32,106 bases of DNA from a virus: positions 1 to 32,106 of the IMG/VR virus record IMGVR_UViG_3300020160_000353. One strand, given 5' to 3'. This document shows, piece by piece, positions 1,856 to 31,238 of the stretch (positions within the stretch are counted from its first letter, which is position 1; each line of letters begins with the position of its first letter). A model generated the notes under the pieces. The model ran no database searches, had not been told where the DNA came from, and saw only the letters and a program-made list of their open reading frames with translations. Both the position numbers and the translations under genes were made by a program.

Positions 1856-1961
1856 GCGGTCGTGAGTGGAATATGGCAGACCTCCGAAACCTGTTGGGTC
1901 TAGGGATGGGGCAAAGTCTTAGACAACGCCTTTGTAGGTTCAAGACCTACCGACCGTACCA
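1856..1961 (+). tRNA. tRNA-like element, anticodon unresolved (possibly class II or decayed tRNA)
   Basis: The ends are convincingly tRNA-like. The 7-bp acceptor GCGGTCG (1856-1862)/CGACCGT (1951-1957) has one G-T. A perfect T arm GTAGG-TTCAAGA-CCTAC occupies 1934-1950, an A discriminator follows, and CCA is encoded at 1959-1961. T8-G9 and a D-loop-like ATGGCAGA also fit. The middle does not fold into a normal anticodon arm. A 6-bp stem AGACCT/GGGTCT (1878-1883/1896-1901) closes a 12-base loop, and an 8-bp stem GTCTAGGG/TCTTAGAC (1898-1905/1917-1924) competes with it. At 106 bases it is about 15-20 longer than a class II tRNA. It could be tRNA-Leu-like with an enlarged variable region, a tRNA with an insertion, or a pseudo-tRNA. 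Confidence 0.55.
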
Positions 1962-5628: not shown

Positions 5629-6384
5629 ATGTTTAACTCAGGCACCTATGATTGGTCTCAATTAGATAGAGATCTAATAGCCAGTATGGTATCTTTTACC
5701 AAGCCCTCAGTAGTTGATAAAACGTTATCTCCTACAGAATTTACCAAAAAAATTAGAACATTGCTTCGATTTTTTAAAATTCCTGTGTCTGTTAAAACAA
5801 CTTATGCTAAAGAAACAACCAAAGATACAGTATGGGTAGGCGGATTGTATTATGCTGTTCCGGATAAAGTTGGTCAAACAGCTATCACTTTACTCCTACA
5901 GTTTAACCCAAAAAATAAAAATCAAATATCAATTAACTACAGACATTTTAGAAAAATGTGCTGGTCATTAGCAGACACACTATTACACGAAATTGTTCAC
6001 ATGAGGCAGTACCGACGTAGATCTTTTAAAGATATTCCAGGATTCTATAGTACAGCTAACAGCGGAAAAAAACGAGCAGAGCAAGTTTACCTTGGACACG
6101 ACGACGAAATAGATGCGTATTCGTTCAACATAGCTTGCCAACTTATAGATAAGTTTGGCTATGATGAAAAAGCTATAGTCAACTATCTAAACTCAGATCT
6201 CAACGATAAAAGGAAAAAATCAAATAGCTTTAAGTTATACCTAGAGGCGTTCGATCACAATCACAAGCATACTGTAATTAAAAAATTAAAGAAAAAAGTC
6301 ATGCGATATGTACCCAACGCCGCCGAAATAAGAAAACCTTATAGAACAACCGATTGGTTAAAAACGTGCGAAAAACAAAAATAA
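5629..6384 (+). CDS. zincin-like metallopeptidase-related phage protein, copy 1
   Basis: The 251-residue protein has a zinc-binding HEIVH at residues 120-124, inside a helix LADTLLHEIVHMRQY. A second helix DDEIDAYSFNIA (158-169) provides Glu160, a plausible third ligand as in gluzincins. The Lys-rich C-terminus is KKLKKKVMRYV. The start is supported by AGAGGG upstream. No signal peptide is seen, so it probably acts in the cytoplasm or virion. The next gene is a clear paralogue. The HExxH suggests peptidase activity, but the substrate is unknown and the fold could have another role. Confidence 0.75.
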   Translation: MFNSGTYDWSQLDRDLIASMVSFTKPSVVDKTLSPTEFTKKIRTLLRFFKIPVSVKTTYAKETTKDTVWVGGLYYAVPDKVGQTAITLLLQFNPKNKNQISINYRHFRKMCWSLADTLLHEIVHMRQYRRRSFKDIPGFYSTANSGKKRAEQVYLGHDDEIDAYSFNIACQLIDKFGYDEKAIVNYLNSDLNDKRKKSNSFKLYLEAFDHNHKHTVIKKLKKKVMRYVPNAAEIRKPYRTTDWLKTCEKQK

Positions 6385-7088
6385 AAAAATTTAATTGCTG
6401 TCCGAAATTAACTAAACCAGTGATCATCCCTACGAGAAAAGAAGTATTAGATATTCTAGAAGATATTAAACCAAAGATAGTTAATCAATTTTTATCCGTA
6501 GATGAGCTAGTACAAGACCTGGGTGTGTTTATTGGACAGCGGTTTAACATCGACGTTAAACATGCCGAAGCCGGACAAGTCGATCAAAACGACATCGAGT
6601 TAAACGGATACTACGACGGTGGACTTGACGAAGTAGGTGATACTGCTATCGAAGTTTATCTTATTACCAATCCAATGCAAGATGTAATAATCATTGACGC
6701 AGAACAATTTGAAATCATTGCTAGAAAAATTGCTGATACACTTAGCCACGAAGTTATCCATATGAGTCAATTCCGTGCTCGAGATTTTCTCGAAGTTGAA
6801 AGAATTGAGTATTCAGATATTGAAGAAGATGAAGAAGAAGATGAACGCGGCTATCTGAGTAGCCCGGATGAGATCAATGCTTATGCTTATAACATAGCAA
6901 ACGAACTTTTGGAAAAGAATGCTCTACCGGTAGTACTCCAAAAATTAAATAGGCTTAAAGACATATCAATAGAAGACAGTCTCAATCTTTGGGCCTATGT
7001 TAATGCTTTTGAAAAGAATACCAATCATCCTGTCCTAAAACGATTAATCAAAAAAGTCTATAAGAGTTTATTGGATCTTTCCAAATAA
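6366..7088 (+). CDS. zincin-like metallopeptidase-related phage protein, copy 2
   Basis: This paralogue of the preceding gene retains IADTLSHEVIHMSQF and SPDEINAYAYNIANEL at equivalent spacing. Between them it carries an acidic stretch (about ten consecutive D/E residues near 6820-6850) that copy 1 lacks. The C-terminal half also aligns (NAFEKNTNHPVLKRL against EAFDHNHKHTVIKKL). There is no ATG near the start. GTG at 6366 is used here, TTG at 6354 is an alternative, and no strong Shine-Dalgarno decides between them. It overlaps copy 1 by about 19 bases, so the pair looks like a tandem duplication kept under co-translation. Confidence 0.72.
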   Translation: MRKTKIKKFNCCPKLTKPVIIPTRKEVLDILEDIKPKIVNQFLSVDELVQDLGVFIGQRFNIDVKHAEAGQVDQNDIELNGYYDGGLDEVGDTAIEVYLITNPMQDVIIIDAEQFEIIARKIADTLSHEVIHMSQFRARDFLEVERIEYSDIEEDEEEDERGYLSSPDEINAYAYNIANELLEKNALPVVLQKLNRLKDISIEDSLNLWAYVNAFEKNTNHPVLKRLIKKVYKSLLDLSK

Positions 7089-23489: not shown

Positions 23490-26400
23490 ATGTCTAATCA
23501 AACAATTAACATCGGTAGTCAACCAAACGACGGCACAGGCGACAGCATTTACACAGCCTTTCAGAAGGTAAATGCTAATTTCCAAGAAGTATATACATTA
23601 CTTGGTTACGGGGCCGGCTTTAGTTTCTTAAGACTTAAAGAAGCTCCAGCATTCCTAAGACCTAACGCTATTCTACAAGTAAATTCTGTAGGTACAAAGT
23701 TTATAAACAAAACTCTTGTTGCCAGTACAGGTATGCAGATTATCATTACAACCTCAACTATTGAGTTTGTTAACACAGCGTCTTCTATTAAAGCTGACGG
23801 AAACCCAACATTATCCGCTAACCTAAGCGGTGAATTTGCCTTTAGTTTGATTAACATGGATGCCGCAGGTCCTCATGCGGATCGCGATGCTGTAAGTCGT
23901 AAGTGGGTCTATGAAAACTTTTTACAACGCGACGGATTGGTAGTATATGACACAACAAGTAGTTCTGAATTACAGTATAACGGACTAAGCGTTTTAAGAA
24001 CCAATGTTAACCTAATAACAACAGCCACAGGGGAACTAAATTTAGTAAACAAGAAATACGTAGACCGCCTAGTCGAAACTAGTAGTTTCGTAAGTAATGT
24101 TAACTTTTTTGTAACAACAGTAGGTGACGACAATAGATTTGAAGTTGCTAGTTCTAAAAGAGGTCGAGCAAATGCCTACGCATTTAAAACCATTAATAGA
24201 GCGGCGGAGGCAGCTGAACAGTTTATTGCCTCCAGCCAGATCGTCCTGGGCCCATACCAAAAAACTATTAGTTACGGCCAAGGTACTGCCAATGCTGTAA
24301 TTGCTTCTACAACTTCTAGCCCAATTTTAAGTACCAGCACATTCGCAACACGAATTAAAGTTACCTTGCCTGTAGAATATTTTAACGTAGGTACAGATCC
24401 TTTTATTAACAAGAGTATCTTTCCTGGTAACTATCTAATTGGTGCCCGTAGCGAAGCGGTGGGGTTAATTGAATCTGTAATATTAAACAGCGGTATAGGC
24501 GAAGAATATTATGATGTAACTCCGGTTGACTACGCAAAAACATATAATGTACCTGTTACCCCAAATACCCAAGGACCAGAAGTAACATTTAGTTTAGGAG
24601 TCGGAAGAGTAATTGATGTTCCAAATTTCTGGATTGGTTATAGGTTTGTTGTCACTGACTCAAACTACGCAGTAGTTGCCGACGGCGTAATTACCTCAAT
24701 TAACACAACTATAGATACATCTAATAATGTCATTGATACTATAAATGTAGACTTCGGAACCGGCTTATTACCAAACACCAATGTGATCGCAGCCGACAAG
24801 TGGCATGTTTATTCAGCTTACTTTGAAGTAGGTGAAGAACTACAATGGGGACAGAAGCAAAATAAAAATCAATGTACCATCTTAGTTGAATCTGGAGAAT
24901 TTGAAGACAACTATCCTATTAAGGTTCCAGAAAACTGCTCTATCAAAGGTGATGAATTCCGCCGTAGCGTTATCAAACCAAAACCGTTATTTGGTACACG
25001 ATTGCCAGGTATCAGCGCATCTAAGTGGGCCAACACCTACTTCTATCGAGATGCTCAGATTGATGGTATTATCGTAACTCAAATAAGCACTACAACCAAT
25101 TTTGCCAGTTCAGTTAACATTACTGCTGATAACATTAATAACGATGCTACTACTGACATAGTAACTTTTACCTTGGCTAGCGGCACAGCGCCGGCCAGCT
25201 GGGTAGGTAAGATTTTTAAAACAAATTCAACCTATGACGCACAGGGAGAAATTAGATCCGTTAATGGAAATATTTTTACTGTCTCATTAGCACAGAACAG
25301 CACGTTCGAAAAGGCTATTGAAAATTATGTTGTAGGTACTACAGTGATTCCAAGCGGTGCTTGGTACGTTTATGCTCCTATTAAAAACGGCTATCACTAT
25401 CTTAGAGATAGTAGTAGAAAAATTAATACACTTACTACCCAAACAAATGGTGGTGGTTTAAACAATGCCGCGATTAATTTAGAATTAAACAGAGAATTTA
25501 TACAAAAAGAATGTATCGCTTATCTACAGTATACATATACTAGTGGCGGATTTATCTGGGCGAATCAAAGCGACACTACTAAATCAAAATGCGAAAGAGA
25601 CATTGGTATTATCGTAGATGCTCTAGTAACTGACCTACGTAGTGGTGGTAATAACTACACTATCAACGCCGGTGACAGCTATAGAAATGTAGCAGTTGTT
25701 AAGAATTTACAACTTGGCCCAACTGTGGCAGCGATTGACCATATCTGGGATATCGGAACGTTAATCATTAATAACGAAGATGTTAGCGCATTACAGCCAA
25801 CAGTACTCCAAGTTAAAACAGATCTTGCTCCAGAAACTACAGCAAGGGCCGTGCTAGCTGACCTAGTACAGGCATGCTCTAGGATCGTTAACAACGATCC
25901 AGCATTTAATCCTCCTAAGTATAACGATCAATTAGACTTGTTCTTAATGAATGACGCAACAATTAATCGATACATTAGTGCTCAAGGTCACGGCGGATTC
26001 ATGAAGGTACTTGACCCAGATGGACAAATTCTTGCCAAGTCACCTTACACACAAACTGCTTCTAGTTTTTCTAAGAGTTACAACAGACAGGTATTTTCCG
26101 GCGGTATGTTTATTGACGGCTTCGCCGGTAATATTAGTGTCGACTTAACCGGAGCAACCATAACTAACGACAGCCAAGGTAATCCTGTTAAGATTAACAT
26201 TAACGCGGCTGGTGGCTTAGGTCGTCCAAGTATTACTGGCGATGGCACTTACCTTCGTCCACAAGTTCCTTGCTTCTTTGTCCACAAAGGTGTTACATAC
26301 GAAGTTAGCTTCGTTGGAGAATGGAATCCCACTCTAGGTACAGGTAGTTTAAATCTTAACCCATTACGTCCGGGTGGTATCAGTGCTGTTACTCCAATAG

Positions 26401-29400
26401 TAACAAATATCGCTACAGGATTTAAGGTCGGTGGTGGAACATTAACAGTACCTGTAAGATTTAGTACTCCCACACAAACGGGCGGTCTAAGTGCTACCGG
26501 TACCGCAGTTATCAGTAACATCGGTAACGTGACAGCGGTTAATGTTGCGTTCCCAGGATCCGGTTATTCAAACGGTCAATATACAAACGCCTCATTGGGA
26601 TGTCCAACTATCATTATAGGTGGCGGACGACTAACATGGACAAGAGACTCTGGTGGTAGCATTACTGGATACAGTATTATCGATGCTGGTGTTGGATATG
26701 CTACTAATACATTAGTTAACTTTCCAATATCGTCTGGAGGAACAGCGTCTGCTTATATCGACGGCGTGAATGGTACCGGAGGTATTACATCCGTTGTAAT
26801 TAGTAACCCGGGGCTAGGTTATACCGAAGATCCAGTTGTAACTTTTGGTGATAATATTTTATACAATTTAAAAGTTACTCCAGGATACAATGTAACAACC
26901 GCTCATCCAATACCTAGTAGTTTAACATTAATTACAGCTGGTAATCGTTCTATGTTGGCTAACGACTTTACACAGATGAACGATTTAGGTTATGGTATTT
27001 TCTGTAGTAACGGTGGATTAGTTGAAAACGTTTCCATGTTTACCTACTACTGCCATAGTGCTTACTATTCTCTAAATGGTGGTCAATGTCGTAGTATCGC
27101 AGGCTCAACATCCTACGGTGTCAATGGACTAAAATCCGAGGGAAGCGATCCGAACGAAGTTCCTATTGCTATCCGCAATAAACGTGCTATGACCCAGCAG
27201 GTTGCTGTATACTCATTGGGAGATTATATCAACGCCACAGACGACTACACAGTTTATATAACTTTGGCCGCAGATGGTTATGCTCCATTATCTCAAAGCC
27301 AGCTTGAAATTAATCACTATGGTACTATCAAACAGTATAATGTAAAGAGCGCAATATTAGTCACTGACGTAGCAGTTCCTGCTAATACCTATGCGTTAAC
27401 CATTGACGACGGAACTGGTCAAGGATTGATTGCTGCAGTTCCAGACGCATGGCCAGCTATTGTTCGAATCTACTACGTACAAGAATTGTTAGACATTAAC
27501 AAGGACACACTAAGTCGTCCGGCTACAGTTTTAACATTCTACGAAGATCCAACTAATGTATATAATATTCTTTCATATACACAAACAGGTGCTGATAGTG
27601 CTACGGCAGAATCAGATGAACCTTACAACTATATTCTTTTAGAACCATATACTGAGGGCGGATTATTTAGACAAGGTCTTGGCCAGTTTACTGTAACATC
27701 CGGTGGTCTTGGATTTAATACCAATACAAATTATACAGCAACTATTCCTGCGCCAAGTACGGCAGGTACTGCCACAGTCAACGGTACACAGAGTAACACA
27801 AATCTTGTAACTATTAGCAGTCCTGCTAACACAATTTTACCAGGAAGTAGAGTTACTCTAACAGCGGGCGGTGGCGATCCTAGCGGTATATCTGGAGCGT
27901 CAACTTATGTAACATGGGTTAACGCCGCTAAAACACAGATTAGAGTTAGTAGAATAATCACATGGACTAACGGCACTGGACTAACATTCTCAGGAACACA
28001 GGCAGTAGGTTATGGTAGATGTAATAATGCCGCTGCCGGAACTATCGATCAGTTAGTGTTAACTAACCAAGGTGCCGGTTATGATGGTACCACTGTTAAC
28101 ACAATTACAGTTACAGGCGGATCAGGAGCCGCTACTATAACAGCATACCCTGTAGGAGTTGTTGGTTCCAATAAAATCAAAGTAGTCGATATCAGTGCTA
28201 CTGATGAGGCTAGGATCGTAGCAGGATTGGCTGCGGCTACTCCTTACTACTATTCTTTTGTTTGGGAAGGTGTTAACTATAAAATTACCAGTTACAAGAA
28301 TTCAACCCAAACCGGAAACGAATGGGGAGAAGTAACAGTTCAAACTGTCACAACGGCGGCGGCACTTCAGGCACCAGTTATCGCATCTACTCTAAGAGCT
28401 GGTATCGGAGCTAACACAGGCGGTGATGTTACTGTTCGTATTAGTACTATGCGTGTAACAGGCCACGACATGTTGAACGTAGGCACTGGTGGGTACGCAG
28501 ATTCTAAATATCCAAACGACTTGTATGGTCCTCCGATCAATCCGCCAGACAGCGGCAAAGAAACAAGAGAGTTACGCAAAGGTCGTGTTTACTACGCAAC
28601 CACTGACCAAGACGGAAACTTTAAAGTTGGTAAGAGCTTTAGCGTTGACCAAGGTCGAGGTACTGTTAGTATCAGTGCTCCTATTAGCTTAACCAACGTT
28701 GACGGTATTAGCTTTAAACGTGGACAAACACTGGTTCAAATATTCAGTGTTGACGGAACTATGGGCGGCAATAGTAATAATGCTGTTCCTACAGAACGAG
28801 CAATCATTACCTACGTTAACAATCGTTTAGGCCTAAACAAGAATAACAACCAAGCAGGCGTTACTAAGATTGGTAGTGGTTTCTTAGACCTAAGCGGTTT
28901 CCAATCAATGAATGGACCAATAAAGAGTAAAATTATTGTTCCAACTGACAGCGGTGTATATTGGGTAGGTACATCAACTAATTTCTATACAGAAATGCAT
29001 GCTGTACGATTCTTTGGTACTTCTACAACTGCCTTAACATGGAATAGTTCAAGAAGCGTAACATTTACTGGTGATGTAACCGGTACCTTTAGTATCAATG
29101 GTGGTGCCGATGTAACCGGCGTTACAATGACTATCCAGCCTAACAGCGTGACATTAGGAACAGACACTACAGGTGATTATGTTTCTACCGGCTCTACAAC
29201 TGGATTTGGTATTAGCGGAAGTACAACAGGGGAAGGTCAAACATTCACTGTTAATTCTAACGCAACAAGTACAAACACTGCTAACACTATTGTTTATAGA
29301 GATGGCAACGGTGACTTTGCCGCTCGCAACATAAACGCAACATTCGTAGATGCGACTCTCGTAGACGCAGATATTGTGGCCAGCAATGTTACAGCAACAA

Positions 29401-31238
29401 CTATCACTCACAGCGGCACAGACGGCACCGGTGACATTGGCGCATCTGGTAACAAGTTTGGCACAGCATACCTAACTGGGGTTAGCGTAGCATCTATTAC
29501 CCACAACGGTACAGACGGTACTGGCGACATTGGCCAAAGCGGCAATAAGTTTGGCACAGTTTATGCTACTACGTTTAACGGTGCGTTAAGTGGAGCGGCA
29601 ACAAAAACTTCTAACACACTAACGGTAGGAACATATCTAAGTTTTGATACTGGTACTGGATTCGATGGTGCTGCCGATAGACAGATCAGAACAAATGGCA
29701 CATCTAGCAATACTATTAGCACCCTTGTTGCTAGAGACTCTAGCGGTGATTTTACTGCGAGAAAGATCACAGCAGAAACATTCACTGCGACTACAGAGAT
29801 CATATCGGCCAAAGTCAACGGTATCTATCCAGAAAATACATTTGCCTATACAACTGCCACTACAGGAGGAGCGTTCTTACGCATAAGCGGCACAGGAAGT
29901 TCTCAGAAAACTAAACCGACCGTAGTTACACTCACTGATAAAGTAGAACTTGAAATTTTAAAGATTGTCTCAGAAATAGCACCTTCAGATCCAGGAGGAG
30001 CGGCGCTGAGAGCAATCTTTACTACTACTAACGCAAGCAGTGCACCTGCGGGATTGATATACGGTGACGTTTCAGCTACCGGTGGAGCATGGAATGCTTC
30101 AACTAATCCACTAGACTTGAGTGACTATACTGTTTTTGCAAGATATAGAGGAGGAAGCTCCACTAATTCCAGTGCTGAAAACATTAGAGTAAATCAATTC
30201 CTTGCCTATGTTCAAGCGAATGCCAACAGACAGTTAATGGTTGACTATGGTTATTTTGATGCTGGAGTTACATTAAAGGACGAAAGCGGATCACCAATCA
30301 CAAGAGAAATCGTATTGTTGGCTATGCTAGACCCCGGACAACAAGCGTTACTTGACATTTATAATACCCTTGATCCATTCGGTTTAAGGTACGGAGACCT
30401 TGATGGATCAGGAGGAGCCCTAAACCTGTCGGATTATACAATAATGCTACAGTTTGTTGCAGGAACAGTTACCAACGATGCCCAGCTATTTAGAATTCGA
30501 AGACTGTTGGCAAAGATTAGTGCCAGTCCATTTAAAGAATTAATCGAAGCATACGGCTACATTAGAACCGACGGTCGAGATGATATTAAATTTAAGTCCG
30601 GTACAAACATTACCGTATCGGCCTCAGACGTTAAAGAAATCACAGTTACAGGTTCATCAACTCCAAGTTTCTCTAGTATTACTAAGAGCGGCACAGATGG
30701 CGTAGGTGACATCGGTGAAAGTGGTCAACGATTTGGCACAGCATATATAGCTTCTGCTAGCTTAGGATCTATCGCTAAAACTGGAACCAACGGTACTGGT
30801 GACATTGGTCAAACTGACAACAGGTTCGGTACTATCTACGGTACAGCAACTAAAGCACAATACGCTGACTTGGCCGAGCTTTACAAAGCCGACGGCAACT
30901 ACGATCCAGGTACTGTAGTTTCCTTTGGTGGTGAAGAAGAAATTACTGTTTCCAGAGAATTCATGGATCGCAGAATAGCAGGAGTTATTTCTACAAATCC
31001 TGCTTACCTAATGAATGACGTTGAAGGCGCAGGTATTCCAGTAGCACTACAAGGTCGTGTGCCATGTAAGGTAGTAGGCAAGATACGTAAAGGTGATATG
31101 CTAGTAGCCAGCGGAATGGTGCCAGGTGTTGCTACAGCAGAGGAACATCCAGCATTAGGTTCTGTAATTGGTAAGGCGCTAGAAAACTACGACAGCCAGA
31201 CCATAGGACTGATCGAAGTCGTGGTAGGGAGAATTTAA
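23490..31238 (+). CDS. giant fibre/tail structural protein with dockerin-like insert
   Basis: The 2,582-residue protein begins MSNQTINIGSQPNDGTGDSI, a head motif of phage fibres shared with the next gene. A parallel-beta-helix-like part near 465-500 (TILVESGEFEDNYPIKVPEN) is followed by Gly/Thr/Asn-rich beta repeats. The block KETRELRKGRVYYATTDQDG to about residue 1790 is typical of T4-like aquatic phage fibres. Four GTDGTGDIG units (1972-2026 and 2397-2451) flank an insert with two dockerin-like loops (Asp2193 region and DLDGSGGALNLSD at 2303-2315). The C-terminal ADLAELYKADGNYDPGTVV to the end (about 2457-2582) is the conserved terminal domain of such fibres. A GAGGAAAA Shine-Dalgarno supports the start. 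It is likely a host-recognition or baseplate-attached fibre. Confidence 0.87.
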   Translation: MSNQTINIGSQPNDGTGDSIYTAFQKVNANFQEVYTLLGYGAGFSFLRLKEAPAFLRPNAILQVNSVGTKFINKTLVASTGMQIIITTSTIEFVNTASSIKADGNPTLSANLSGEFAFSLINMDAAGPHADRDAVSRKWVYENFLQRDGLVVYDTTSSSELQYNGLSVLRTNVNLITTATGELNLVNKKYVDRLVETSSFVSNVNFFVTTVGDDNRFEVASSKRGRANAYAFKTINRAAEAAEQFIASSQIVLGPYQKTISYGQGTANAVIASTTSSPILSTSTFATRIKVTLPVEYFNVGTDPFINKSIFPGNYLIGARSEAVGLIESVILNSGIGEEYYDVTPVDYAKTYNVPVTPNTQGPEVTFSLGVGRVIDVPNFWIGYRFVVTDSNYAVVADGVITSINTTIDTSNNVIDTINVDFGTGLLPNTNVIAADKWHVYSAYFEVGEELQWGQKQNKNQCTILVESGEFEDNYPIKVPENCSIKGDEFRRSVIKPKPLFGTRLPGISASKWANTYFYRDAQIDGIIVTQISTTTNFASSVNITADNINNDATTDIVTFTLASGTAPASWVGKIFKTNSTYDAQGEIRSVNGNIFTVSLAQNSTFEKAIENYVVGTTVIPSGAWYVYAPIKNGYHYLRDSSRKINTLTTQTNGGGLNNAAINLELNREFIQKECIAYLQYTYTSGGFIWANQSDTTKSKCERDIGIIVDALVTDLRSGGNNYTINAGDSYRNVAVVKNLQLGPTVAAIDHIWDIGTLIINNEDVSALQPTVLQVKTDLAPETTARAVLADLVQACSRIVNNDPAFNPPKYNDQLDLFLMNDATINRYISAQGHGGFMKVLDPDGQILAKSPYTQTASSFSKSYNRQVFSGGMFIDGFAGNISVDLTGATITNDSQGNPVKININAAGGLGRPSITGDGTYLRPQVPCFFVHKGVTYEVSFVGEWNPTLGTGSLNLNPLRPGGISAVTPIVTNIATGFKVGGGTLTVPVRFSTPTQTGGLSATGTAVISNIGNVTAVNVAFPGSGYSNGQYTNASLGCPTIIIGGGRLTWTRDSGGSITGYSIIDAGVGYATNTLVNFPISSGGTASAYIDGVNGTGGITSVVISNPGLGYTEDPVVTFGDNILYNLKVTPGYNVTTAHPIPSSLTLITAGNRSMLANDFTQMNDLGYGIFCSNGGLVENVSMFTYYCHSAYYSLNGGQCRSIAGSTSYGVNGLKSEGSDPNEVPIAIRNKRAMTQQVAVYSLGDYINATDDYTVYITLAADGYAPLSQSQLEINHYGTIKQYNVKSAILVTDVAVPANTYALTIDDGTGQGLIAAVPDAWPAIVRIYYVQELLDINKDTLSRPATVLTFYEDPTNVYNILSYTQTGADSATAESDEPYNYILLEPYTEGGLFRQGLGQFTVTSGGLGFNTNTNYTATIPAPSTAGTATVNGTQSNTNLVTISSPANTILPGSRVTLTAGGGDPSGISGASTYVTWVNAAKTQIRVSRIITWTNGTGLTFSGTQAVGYGRCNNAAAGTIDQLVLTNQGAGYDGTTVNTITVTGGSGAATITAYPVGVVGSNKIKVVDISATDEARIVAGLAAATPYYYSFVWEGVNYKITSYKNSTQTGNEWGEVTVQTVTTAAALQAPVIASTLRAGIGANTGGDVTVRISTMRVTGHDMLNVGTGGYADSKYPNDLYGPPINPPDSGKETRELRKGRVYYATTDQDGNFKVGKSFSVDQGRGTVSISAPISLTNVDGISFKRGQTLVQIFSVDGTMGGNSNNAVPTERAIITYVNNRLGLNKNNNQAGVTKIGSGFLDLSGFQSMNGPIKSKIIVPTDSGVYWVGTSTNFYTEMHAVRFFGTSTTALTWNSSRSVTFTGDVTGTFSINGGADVTGVTMTIQPNSVTLGTDTTGDYVSTGSTTGFGISGSTTGEGQTFTVNSNATSTNTANTIVYRDGNGDFAARNINATFVDATLVDADIVASNVTATTITHSGTDGTGDIGASGNKFGTAYLTGVSVASITHNGTDGTGDIGQSGNKFGTVYATTFNGALSGAATKTSNTLTVGTYLSFDTGTGFDGAADRQIRTNGTSSNTISTLVARDSSGDFTARKITAETFTATTEIISAKVNGIYPENTFAYTTATTGGAFLRISGTGSSQKTKPTVVTLTDKVELEILKIVSEIAPSDPGGAALRAIFTTTNASSAPAGLIYGDVSATGGAWNASTNPLDLSDYTVFARYRGGSSTNSSAENIRVNQFLAYVQANANRQLMVDYGYFDAGVTLKDESGSPITREIVLLAMLDPGQQALLDIYNTLDPFGLRYGDLDGSGGALNLSDYTIMLQFVAGTVTNDAQLFRIRRLLAKISASPFKELIEAYGYIRTDGRDDIKFKSGTNITVSASDVKEITVTGSSTPSFSSITKSGTDGVGDIGESGQRFGTAYIASASLGSIAKTGTNGTGDIGQTDNRFGTIYGTATKAQYADLAELYKADGNYDPGTVVSFGGEEEITVSREFMDRRIAGVISTNPAYLMNDVEGAGIPVALQGRVPCKVVGKIRKGDMLVASGMVPGVATAEEHPALGSVIGKALENYDSQTIGLIEVVVGRI
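29403..29566 (+). repeat. Coding repeat, GTDGTGDIG units 1 and 2
   Basis: Two units of about 24 residues (ITHSGTDGTGDIGASGNKFG and ITHNGTDGTGDIGQSGNKFG) start at 29403 and 29496, exactly 93 bases apart. Confidence 0.85.
30063..30440 (+). other. dockerin-like EF-hand pair inside the fibre gene
   Basis: Two segments, GDVSATGGAW then NPLDLSDYTVFARY (from 30063) and GDLDGSGGALNLSDYTIMLQ (from 30393), follow the dockerin type I pattern: GD, a Ca-loop rich in D/N/S/G, then a short helix. The second loop DLDGSGGALNLSD is 1 residue longer than usual. Calcium binding is inferred. Confidence 0.6.
30678..30842 (+). repeat. Coding repeat, GTDGTGDIG units 3 and 4
   Basis: Units ITKSGTDGVGDIGESGQRFG and IAKTGTNGTGDIGQTDNRFG start at 30678 and 30771, again 93 bases apart. 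They are more diverged than units 1 and 2. Confidence 0.85.

Follow-up and report, generated by a model that had tools for sequence, protein, structure and literature searches.

A family of phage tRNA-like RNAs with tRNA-Leu features and no anticodon arm

The tRNA genes of phages are usually explained by decoding, either as codon supply or as replacements for host tRNAs that have been cut. YrlA, a bacterial Y RNA, has a tRNA-like module. The nearest analogue found for the RNA described here is RNA C of phage T4 (rnaC), which is classed as a late RNA in the accessible text of PMC9697503, and whose role is called unknown there and in the accessible parts of PMC3014915 and PMC12685909. As far as the text of PMC3929946 is available, tmRNA is also without an anticodon arm, and the partner of bacterial Ro60 is tRNA-like according to the available part of PMC7824862. 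For E. coli tRNA-Leu, the accessible portion of PMC9976931 gives A73, A15-U48, G18G19 and A20a as essential, reports that charging persists in variants lacking the anticodon and variable arms, and describes the anticodon arm as dispensable for charging by leucyl-tRNA synthetase (LeuRS) and needed for editing.

The RNA examined here consists of 106 bases at positions 1856-1961, on the plus strand, of the window, the 32,106-nt stretch of viral DNA from IMG/VR record IMGVR_UViG_3300020160_000353. The original prediction had placed at these positions a tRNA-like RNA with intact acceptor, T arm and CCA, and the 7-bp acceptor, the T arm, A73 and the CCA are all confirmed. The 5' strand of the acceptor stem (GCGGUCG, 1856-1862) pairs with CGACCGU, the first pair being G-U; this 3' strand is followed by A73 and an encoded CCA (1951-1961, the CCA ending at 1961). 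The D arm (1865-1883) has a 3-bp stem, AG(u)G:CCU, with a bulged U, and a loop, GAAUAUGGCAGA, that contains A14, A15, G18, G19 and A20a. Two long hairpins had been proposed as alternatives in the centre; both exist and are conserved, but they lie side by side. Hairpin 1 (1884-1904), at the position of the anticodon arm, has a CC...GG base and an inner ACCU-GUU-GGGU, and is devoid of an anticodon. Hairpin 2 (1908-1932), a long variable arm, is made of GGGGC/GCCUU, a 3x3 internal loop and GUC-UUA-GAC. A lone base, U48 (1933), the partner of A15, separates it from the T arm GUAGG-UUCAAGA-CCUAC (1934-1950), with its 5-bp stem and UUCAAGA loop. The ATG of a methyltransferase-like gene is found at 1968, six bases past the CCA, as had been noted, but the RNA does not directly follow tRNA-Arg, as a 60-aa ORF (1665-1847) separates the two.

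ARAGORN and Rfam recognize only tRNA-Arg (1573) and tRNA-Thr (3386) in the window and nothing at 1856-1961, so that neither gives a confident cloverleaf with an anticodon at the RNA. Between 1820 and 2000 there is no Rfam tRNA match even at E ≤ 10. The folding energy is ordinary (z of -0.15, 85 of 200 shuffled sequences folding as well), and the single sequence therefore cannot decide whether the RNA is real.

Relatives were collected from IMG/VR. A first scan with the last 25 bases of the window RNA returned a near-identical contig and a different contig (L005) that shares the RNA and has a homologue of the gene downstream of it. Further scans used the D region, the T side with the D region left out, and a second type of D arm. 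Those with the D region yielded 47 contigs (L013 and L027 without the structure), then 114 (L090 and L105 without the structure, L056 and L099 ending within the RNA, and L059 and L082, too short as parsed, left out of alignment A1). The T-side scan gave at least 119 matches, and the scan with the second D-arm type 64 (L261 without the structure; L219, L246, L254 and L267 ending within the RNA). Altogether, the family comprises at least 143 distinct sequences from at least 241 viral contigs. Lengths range from 93 nt, in a member cut by the contig end, to 119 nt, full-length members measuring 96-119 nt.

The structure is maintained throughout this collection. All seven acceptor pairs are present in 141 of the 143 distinct members and six in the other two, with 25 different 5' strands. 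The T stem has 5/5 pairs in 143/143 and the loop is UUCNA in 142/143. A73 is invariant (143/143) and the CCA is encoded in 128/143, in keeping with a tRNA-like 3' end open to completion by a CCA enzyme. U48, a position that the D-side searches did not constrain, is U in all 143. In alignment A1, made of 62 distinct sequences, the acceptor, D stem, base of hairpin 1, hairpin 2 and T stem together amount to 1546 pair cells, 99.7% of which hold standard pairs; the figure is 90.9% for 500 shuffles and no more than 48.8% once partners are slid. Two-sided changes occur at 17 of the 25 pairs (shuffled mean, 8.4), including six of the seven acceptor pairs. The CC:GG base of hairpin 1 is maintained, with compensation. 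In hairpin 2, the outer stem is paired at 99.3% and the inner stem at 100% across the 62 sequences, although the middle inner pair is UA in 28, AU in 23, GC in 6 and CG in 5. RNAalifold alone recovers the acceptor along with hairpin 2 and the T arm, but pairs the D region differently.

The lack of variation of the D stem in A1 comes from the search pattern, which prescribed it. The stem nevertheless forms in 112/112 distinct members (AG[U/C]G:CCU in 103, AGC:GCU in 7, AcGG:CCU in 2), and in the sets where it was not forced the third pair is compensated and the bulge moved (AGuG:CCU, AGC:GCU, AcGG:CCU).

The R1 model found one strong match in each of 80/80 sources that include its training set (85.8-122.4 bits) and in each of 82/82 sources outside it (60.5-111.6 bits), the best ordinary tRNA in the scored sources reaching 43.0 bits. 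A second subgroup gives R1 matches of 55.7-91.2 bits at 51 of 55 loci. The 60.5-bit case, L137:6074-6193, retains an intact 3' half and lacks the 5' acceptor and D half; it is either decaying or the result of recombination, and was excluded from the 143 members. Such a truncation shows that loss of the RNA can occur. Each of the 20 large carrier contigs (50-238 kb) holds one strong R1 copy, the next best match scoring 47.8 bits. Unlike the fold energy, the comparative evidence for an RNA beyond chance is overwhelming, and the 106-base element is almost certainly a real conserved RNA.

The original prediction had also held that no normal anticodon arm is formed, and the family bears this out. 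In minimum-energy folds of 111 of the 112 distinct members (L181 was not parsed, and a few folds are doubtful), the apical loop of hairpin 1 has 3 nt in 26, 4 nt in 48, 5 nt in 24, 6 nt in 9, 7 nt in 1 and 8 nt in 3. GNRA, UUCG and CUUG tetraloops are among them. The shortest hairpins 1 are about 12 nt long, for example CUGC-UAAA-GCAG; the whole centre spans at most 45 nt in 15/112 members, and L109 and L115 are alike except that hairpin 1 is almost wholly lost. With a hairpin that shrinks to about 12 bases and loops of 3-8, an anticodon arm of a 5-bp stem and a 7-base loop is therefore impossible. Among the features of a decoding tRNA, the 7-bp acceptor, 5-bp T arm and discriminator base are thus present, with a CCA that is mostly encoded, and the 5-bp anticodon stem with its 7-base loop is absent, a loop of that size occurring in 1/111 folds. 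Hairpin 2 stands where a class II tRNA has its variable arm, and has an architecture of its own. The window copy fails the Rfam tRNA gathering cut-off, which L010 and L045 pass marginally (29.7 versus 29 bits). ARAGORN calls a tRNA at 12 of 191 member loci, as Pro, Arg or His among the ten matches listed. Taken together, the RNA is very probably non-decoding.

In 102 of the 106 distinct regions upstream of the RNA, the best -10 hexamer agrees with TATAAT at five or more of six positions. The hexamer ends exactly 6 nt upstream of base 1 in 92/106 and 5-7 nt upstream of it in 101/106, a spacing also found in 40 of 43 upstream regions of the second subgroup. Combined -35/-10 scores reach 9/12 in 92/106 regions, against a shuffle mean of 11.6. 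Ordinary tRNAs of the same loci have a -10 box of this quality at 5-7 nt in 16/396 cases. From this spacing, transcription should start at base 1, with a sigma-70-like promoter so placed in nearly all members. The window copy is an exception, its own promoter score being the poorest of all distinct upstream regions. There, a promoter-like site on the plus strand upstream of tRNA-Arg (TTGCTA-17-TATAAT, 1535-1563), with 10/12 consensus matches, probably drives a unit of tRNA-Arg, the 60-aa ORF, the RNA and the methyltransferase-like gene. A terminator-like site (1496-1517) bounds this unit upstream.

The large carriers contain between 1 and 38 ordinary tRNA matches per contig (n = 20), a 199-kb contig having 1. 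A gene often begins 6-85 nt 3' of the RNA, and varies: it may encode a methyltransferase-like protein, tRNAs, a lysine-rich protein, an oxygenase, a glycosyltransferase or a secreted protein. The lysine-rich protein, found downstream in many loci (for example L197), has 64 residues (MSNTVEQLK...), is histone H1-like by eye and has no PHROG match. ORFs of this downstream stretch cluster over 138/191 loci, and an ATAAGTA motif, which we take to resemble T4-type late promoters, often precedes the gene. Elsewhere in the window, positions 66-1481 encode a Ro60/TROVE-like protein (phrog_850, 'RNA-binding protein'; Pfam DUF7788 and DUF2828). Two adjacent genes, 5629-6384 and 6354-7088, have a similar layout and HExxH-like motifs (HEIVH and HEVIH); neither has a Pfam match, their products are perhaps paralogous metallopeptidases, and relatives of the first lie near the RNA in 22/191 loci. 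A single ORF of 2582 aa occupies 23490-31238.

Named phages sharing a window protein are jumbo phages or what we take to be T4-like phages, of proteobacteria and a cyanobacterium; in nine such relatives chosen by a shared window protein, R1 scores at most 39 bits. Searching the members by blastn against named phages and plasmids returned T-arm/acceptor fragments, tRNA genes and short pieces, and no whole member. A scan of genome contigs gave two matches, both without the RNA structure. As, in the loci scanned, nothing in Rfam release 15 other than the general tRNA model matches the RNA, and no description was found in a literature search with most subscription papers outside its reach, the family is new, of a known kind, that of tRNA-like RNAs.

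The family keeps features of tRNA-Leu. U8, A15-U48, G18G19, A20a and A73 are found in 143/143 members, and the full LeuRS set (U8, A14A15, G18G19, A20a, U48, A73 and UUCNA) in 112/112. Among ordinary tRNAs of the same loci, after those with an unlocatable T loop were dropped, the set is present in 36/39 tRNA-Leu and 36/323 others. Because the D-side and T-side searches force different parts, each part of the set was free in one search, and the set is complete in 48/48 members found without the D-side constraint. The D-loop motif GAA(1-3)GGNA[GT]AC is present in 101/112 members; in ordinary tRNAs of these loci it occurs only in tRNA-Leu (17/39) and in no other isotype. Profiles of the whole acceptor, D and T module do not single out leucine, the best isotype appearing as Pro in 28, Tyr in 23, Leu in 18, Arg in 18, Trp in 17, Ile in 5 and Cys in 2 (n = 111). 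On balance, charging by LeuRS is slightly favoured. Neither the Leu/Phe-tRNA-protein transferase (PF03588), a leucine donor enzyme, nor a class I synthetase (PF00133) was detected in the 20 large carrier contigs.

The comparison of members shows a predicted tRNA upper half that is kept, with the 7-bp acceptor, 5-bp T arm, D-loop/T-loop elbow, A73 and usually the CCA, and an anticodon arm replaced by a hairpin of varying length and loop, which should be unable to present an anticodon. The RNA thus looks built for tRNA-like handling without codon reading. The preferred reading, with a probability of roughly 0.5 judging from sequence, is that it is a stand-alone, non-decoding mimic of tRNA-Leu, probably leucylated, acting off the ribosome. 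Its own promoter would give early and abundant synthesis, with no need of RNase P; the 3' end would be trimmed, and the host CCA enzyme would complete the CCA where it is not encoded. Once folded into the elbow of the L, it would be charged by host LeuRS, as the reported determinants are kept and the anticodon is not read by this enzyme. The leucyl-RNA or the bare RNA would then act off the ribosome, because it cannot decode. That a single-copy, non-decoding tRNA shape is carried by phages with 1-38 tRNA matches points to a use outside translation, and the earlier suggestion of a tRNA mimic with another role, possibly binding a synthetase, fits the evidence. As its likeliest use, the RNA may tentatively be seen as a competitor or decoy for host enzymes that bind the acceptor or elbow, such as the synthetase, EF-Tu or defence toxins attacking the CCA end; a dedicated leucine donor, the next likeliest, is doubtful. 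More speculatively, it could represent a new class of RNA, a leucyl-RNA born with a mature 5' end, charged by the host and never decoding, donor or decoy, which would escape editing since editing depends on the anticodon arm.

Several other explanations were weighed against a tRNA-Leu mimic. It is unlikely that the RNA and T4 stable RNA C are distant homologues within one old phage family of tRNA-like RNAs. The 3' 95 nt of rnaC (1407-1501 of the T4 sequence L215, minus strand) form a tRNA-like domain ending in UACA, with a 7-bp acceptor, a T arm and no clear anticodon arm (assessed partly by eye), and both RNAs lie near tRNA genes; but rnaC lacks the GAA..GGNAGAC D loop, has a 5' extension, and reaches 23 bits with the R1 model, no more than a tRNA-Ser. 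A role in cis, as the leader or a processing element for the gene that follows, instead of as a free RNA, has slightly poorer prospects: proximity of that gene, down to 6 nt after the CCA in the window, would suit it, but the genes differ between loci, A73 is invariant and the CCA is mostly encoded.

A Y-RNA-like partner of the neighbouring Ro60/TROVE-like protein, the DUF2828 partner of the original prediction, is improbable. The gene adjoins the RNA in the window, and a tRNA-like partner has a precedent in bacterial Ro60 (accessible text of PMC7824862). However, counting phage contigs only, phrog_850 is present in 10 of the 20 large carriers, and was not found in the perhaps incomplete contigs of 238, 199 and 169 kb; with a homologue at 10/191 loci in the fetched flanks, a general role is not supported. 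In the window, moreover, the terminator-like and promoter-like sites (1496-1517 and 1535-1563) lie between gene and RNA. No Rfam YrlA match overlaps the RNA in the window or the 15 further loci scanned, the sole sub-threshold match in those 15 (L077:867-932) overlapping ordinary tRNAs.

A decayed tRNA, or one with an insertion or intron in the anticodon arm removed by splicing, is very improbable. The ordinary single-sequence fold and the truncated L137 would agree with it, but compensatory changes hold the stems throughout, pairing is kept across 143 distinct sequences, and central stems and acceptor are both preserved in relatives; about 12 nt take the place of the anticodon arm in the shortest members, fewer than a 5-bp stem and 7-base loop need, which refutes an insertion for the family. 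The RNA is also far too short to hold a group I intron. A ribosome-rescue RNA of the tmRNA type, with which it has the absent anticodon arm in common (accessible text of PMC3929946), is equally improbable, as neither a tag reading frame nor pseudoknots are seen in the RNA and Rfam gives no tmRNA match at it in the window or the further loci scanned.

Compared with known systems, the phage RNA shares with bacterial tRNA-Leu (class II) the D loop GGAA-N-UGGYAGAC, A15-U48, G18G19, A20a, A73, the long variable arm and the CCA. It differs from it by the lack of an anticodon arm, a bulged U in most D stems, a longer, two-part variable arm, a full length of 96-119 nt and a promoter at base 1. With tmRNA it shares a tRNA upper half without an anticodon arm, whereas it has no mRNA-like domain, has a hairpin at the place of the anticodon arm, and carries determinants of the Leu type and not of the Ala type, of which G3-U70 is the sign. 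YrlA has in common with it the tRNA-like module (accessible text of PMC7824862) and, in the window, an adjoining Ro60-like gene; the phage RNA differs in its free CCA end, and the Ro60-like protein was not found in half of the carriers. T4 rnaC, or species 1 RNA, is likewise a phage-encoded tRNA-like RNA near tRNA genes with an acceptor and T arm, but is annotated as 139 nt, with its 5' extension, another D loop and the low R1 score. Its 3' domain is possibly an analogue or a distant relative, and the family gives T4 RNAs C and D, both unexplained, something to be compared with.
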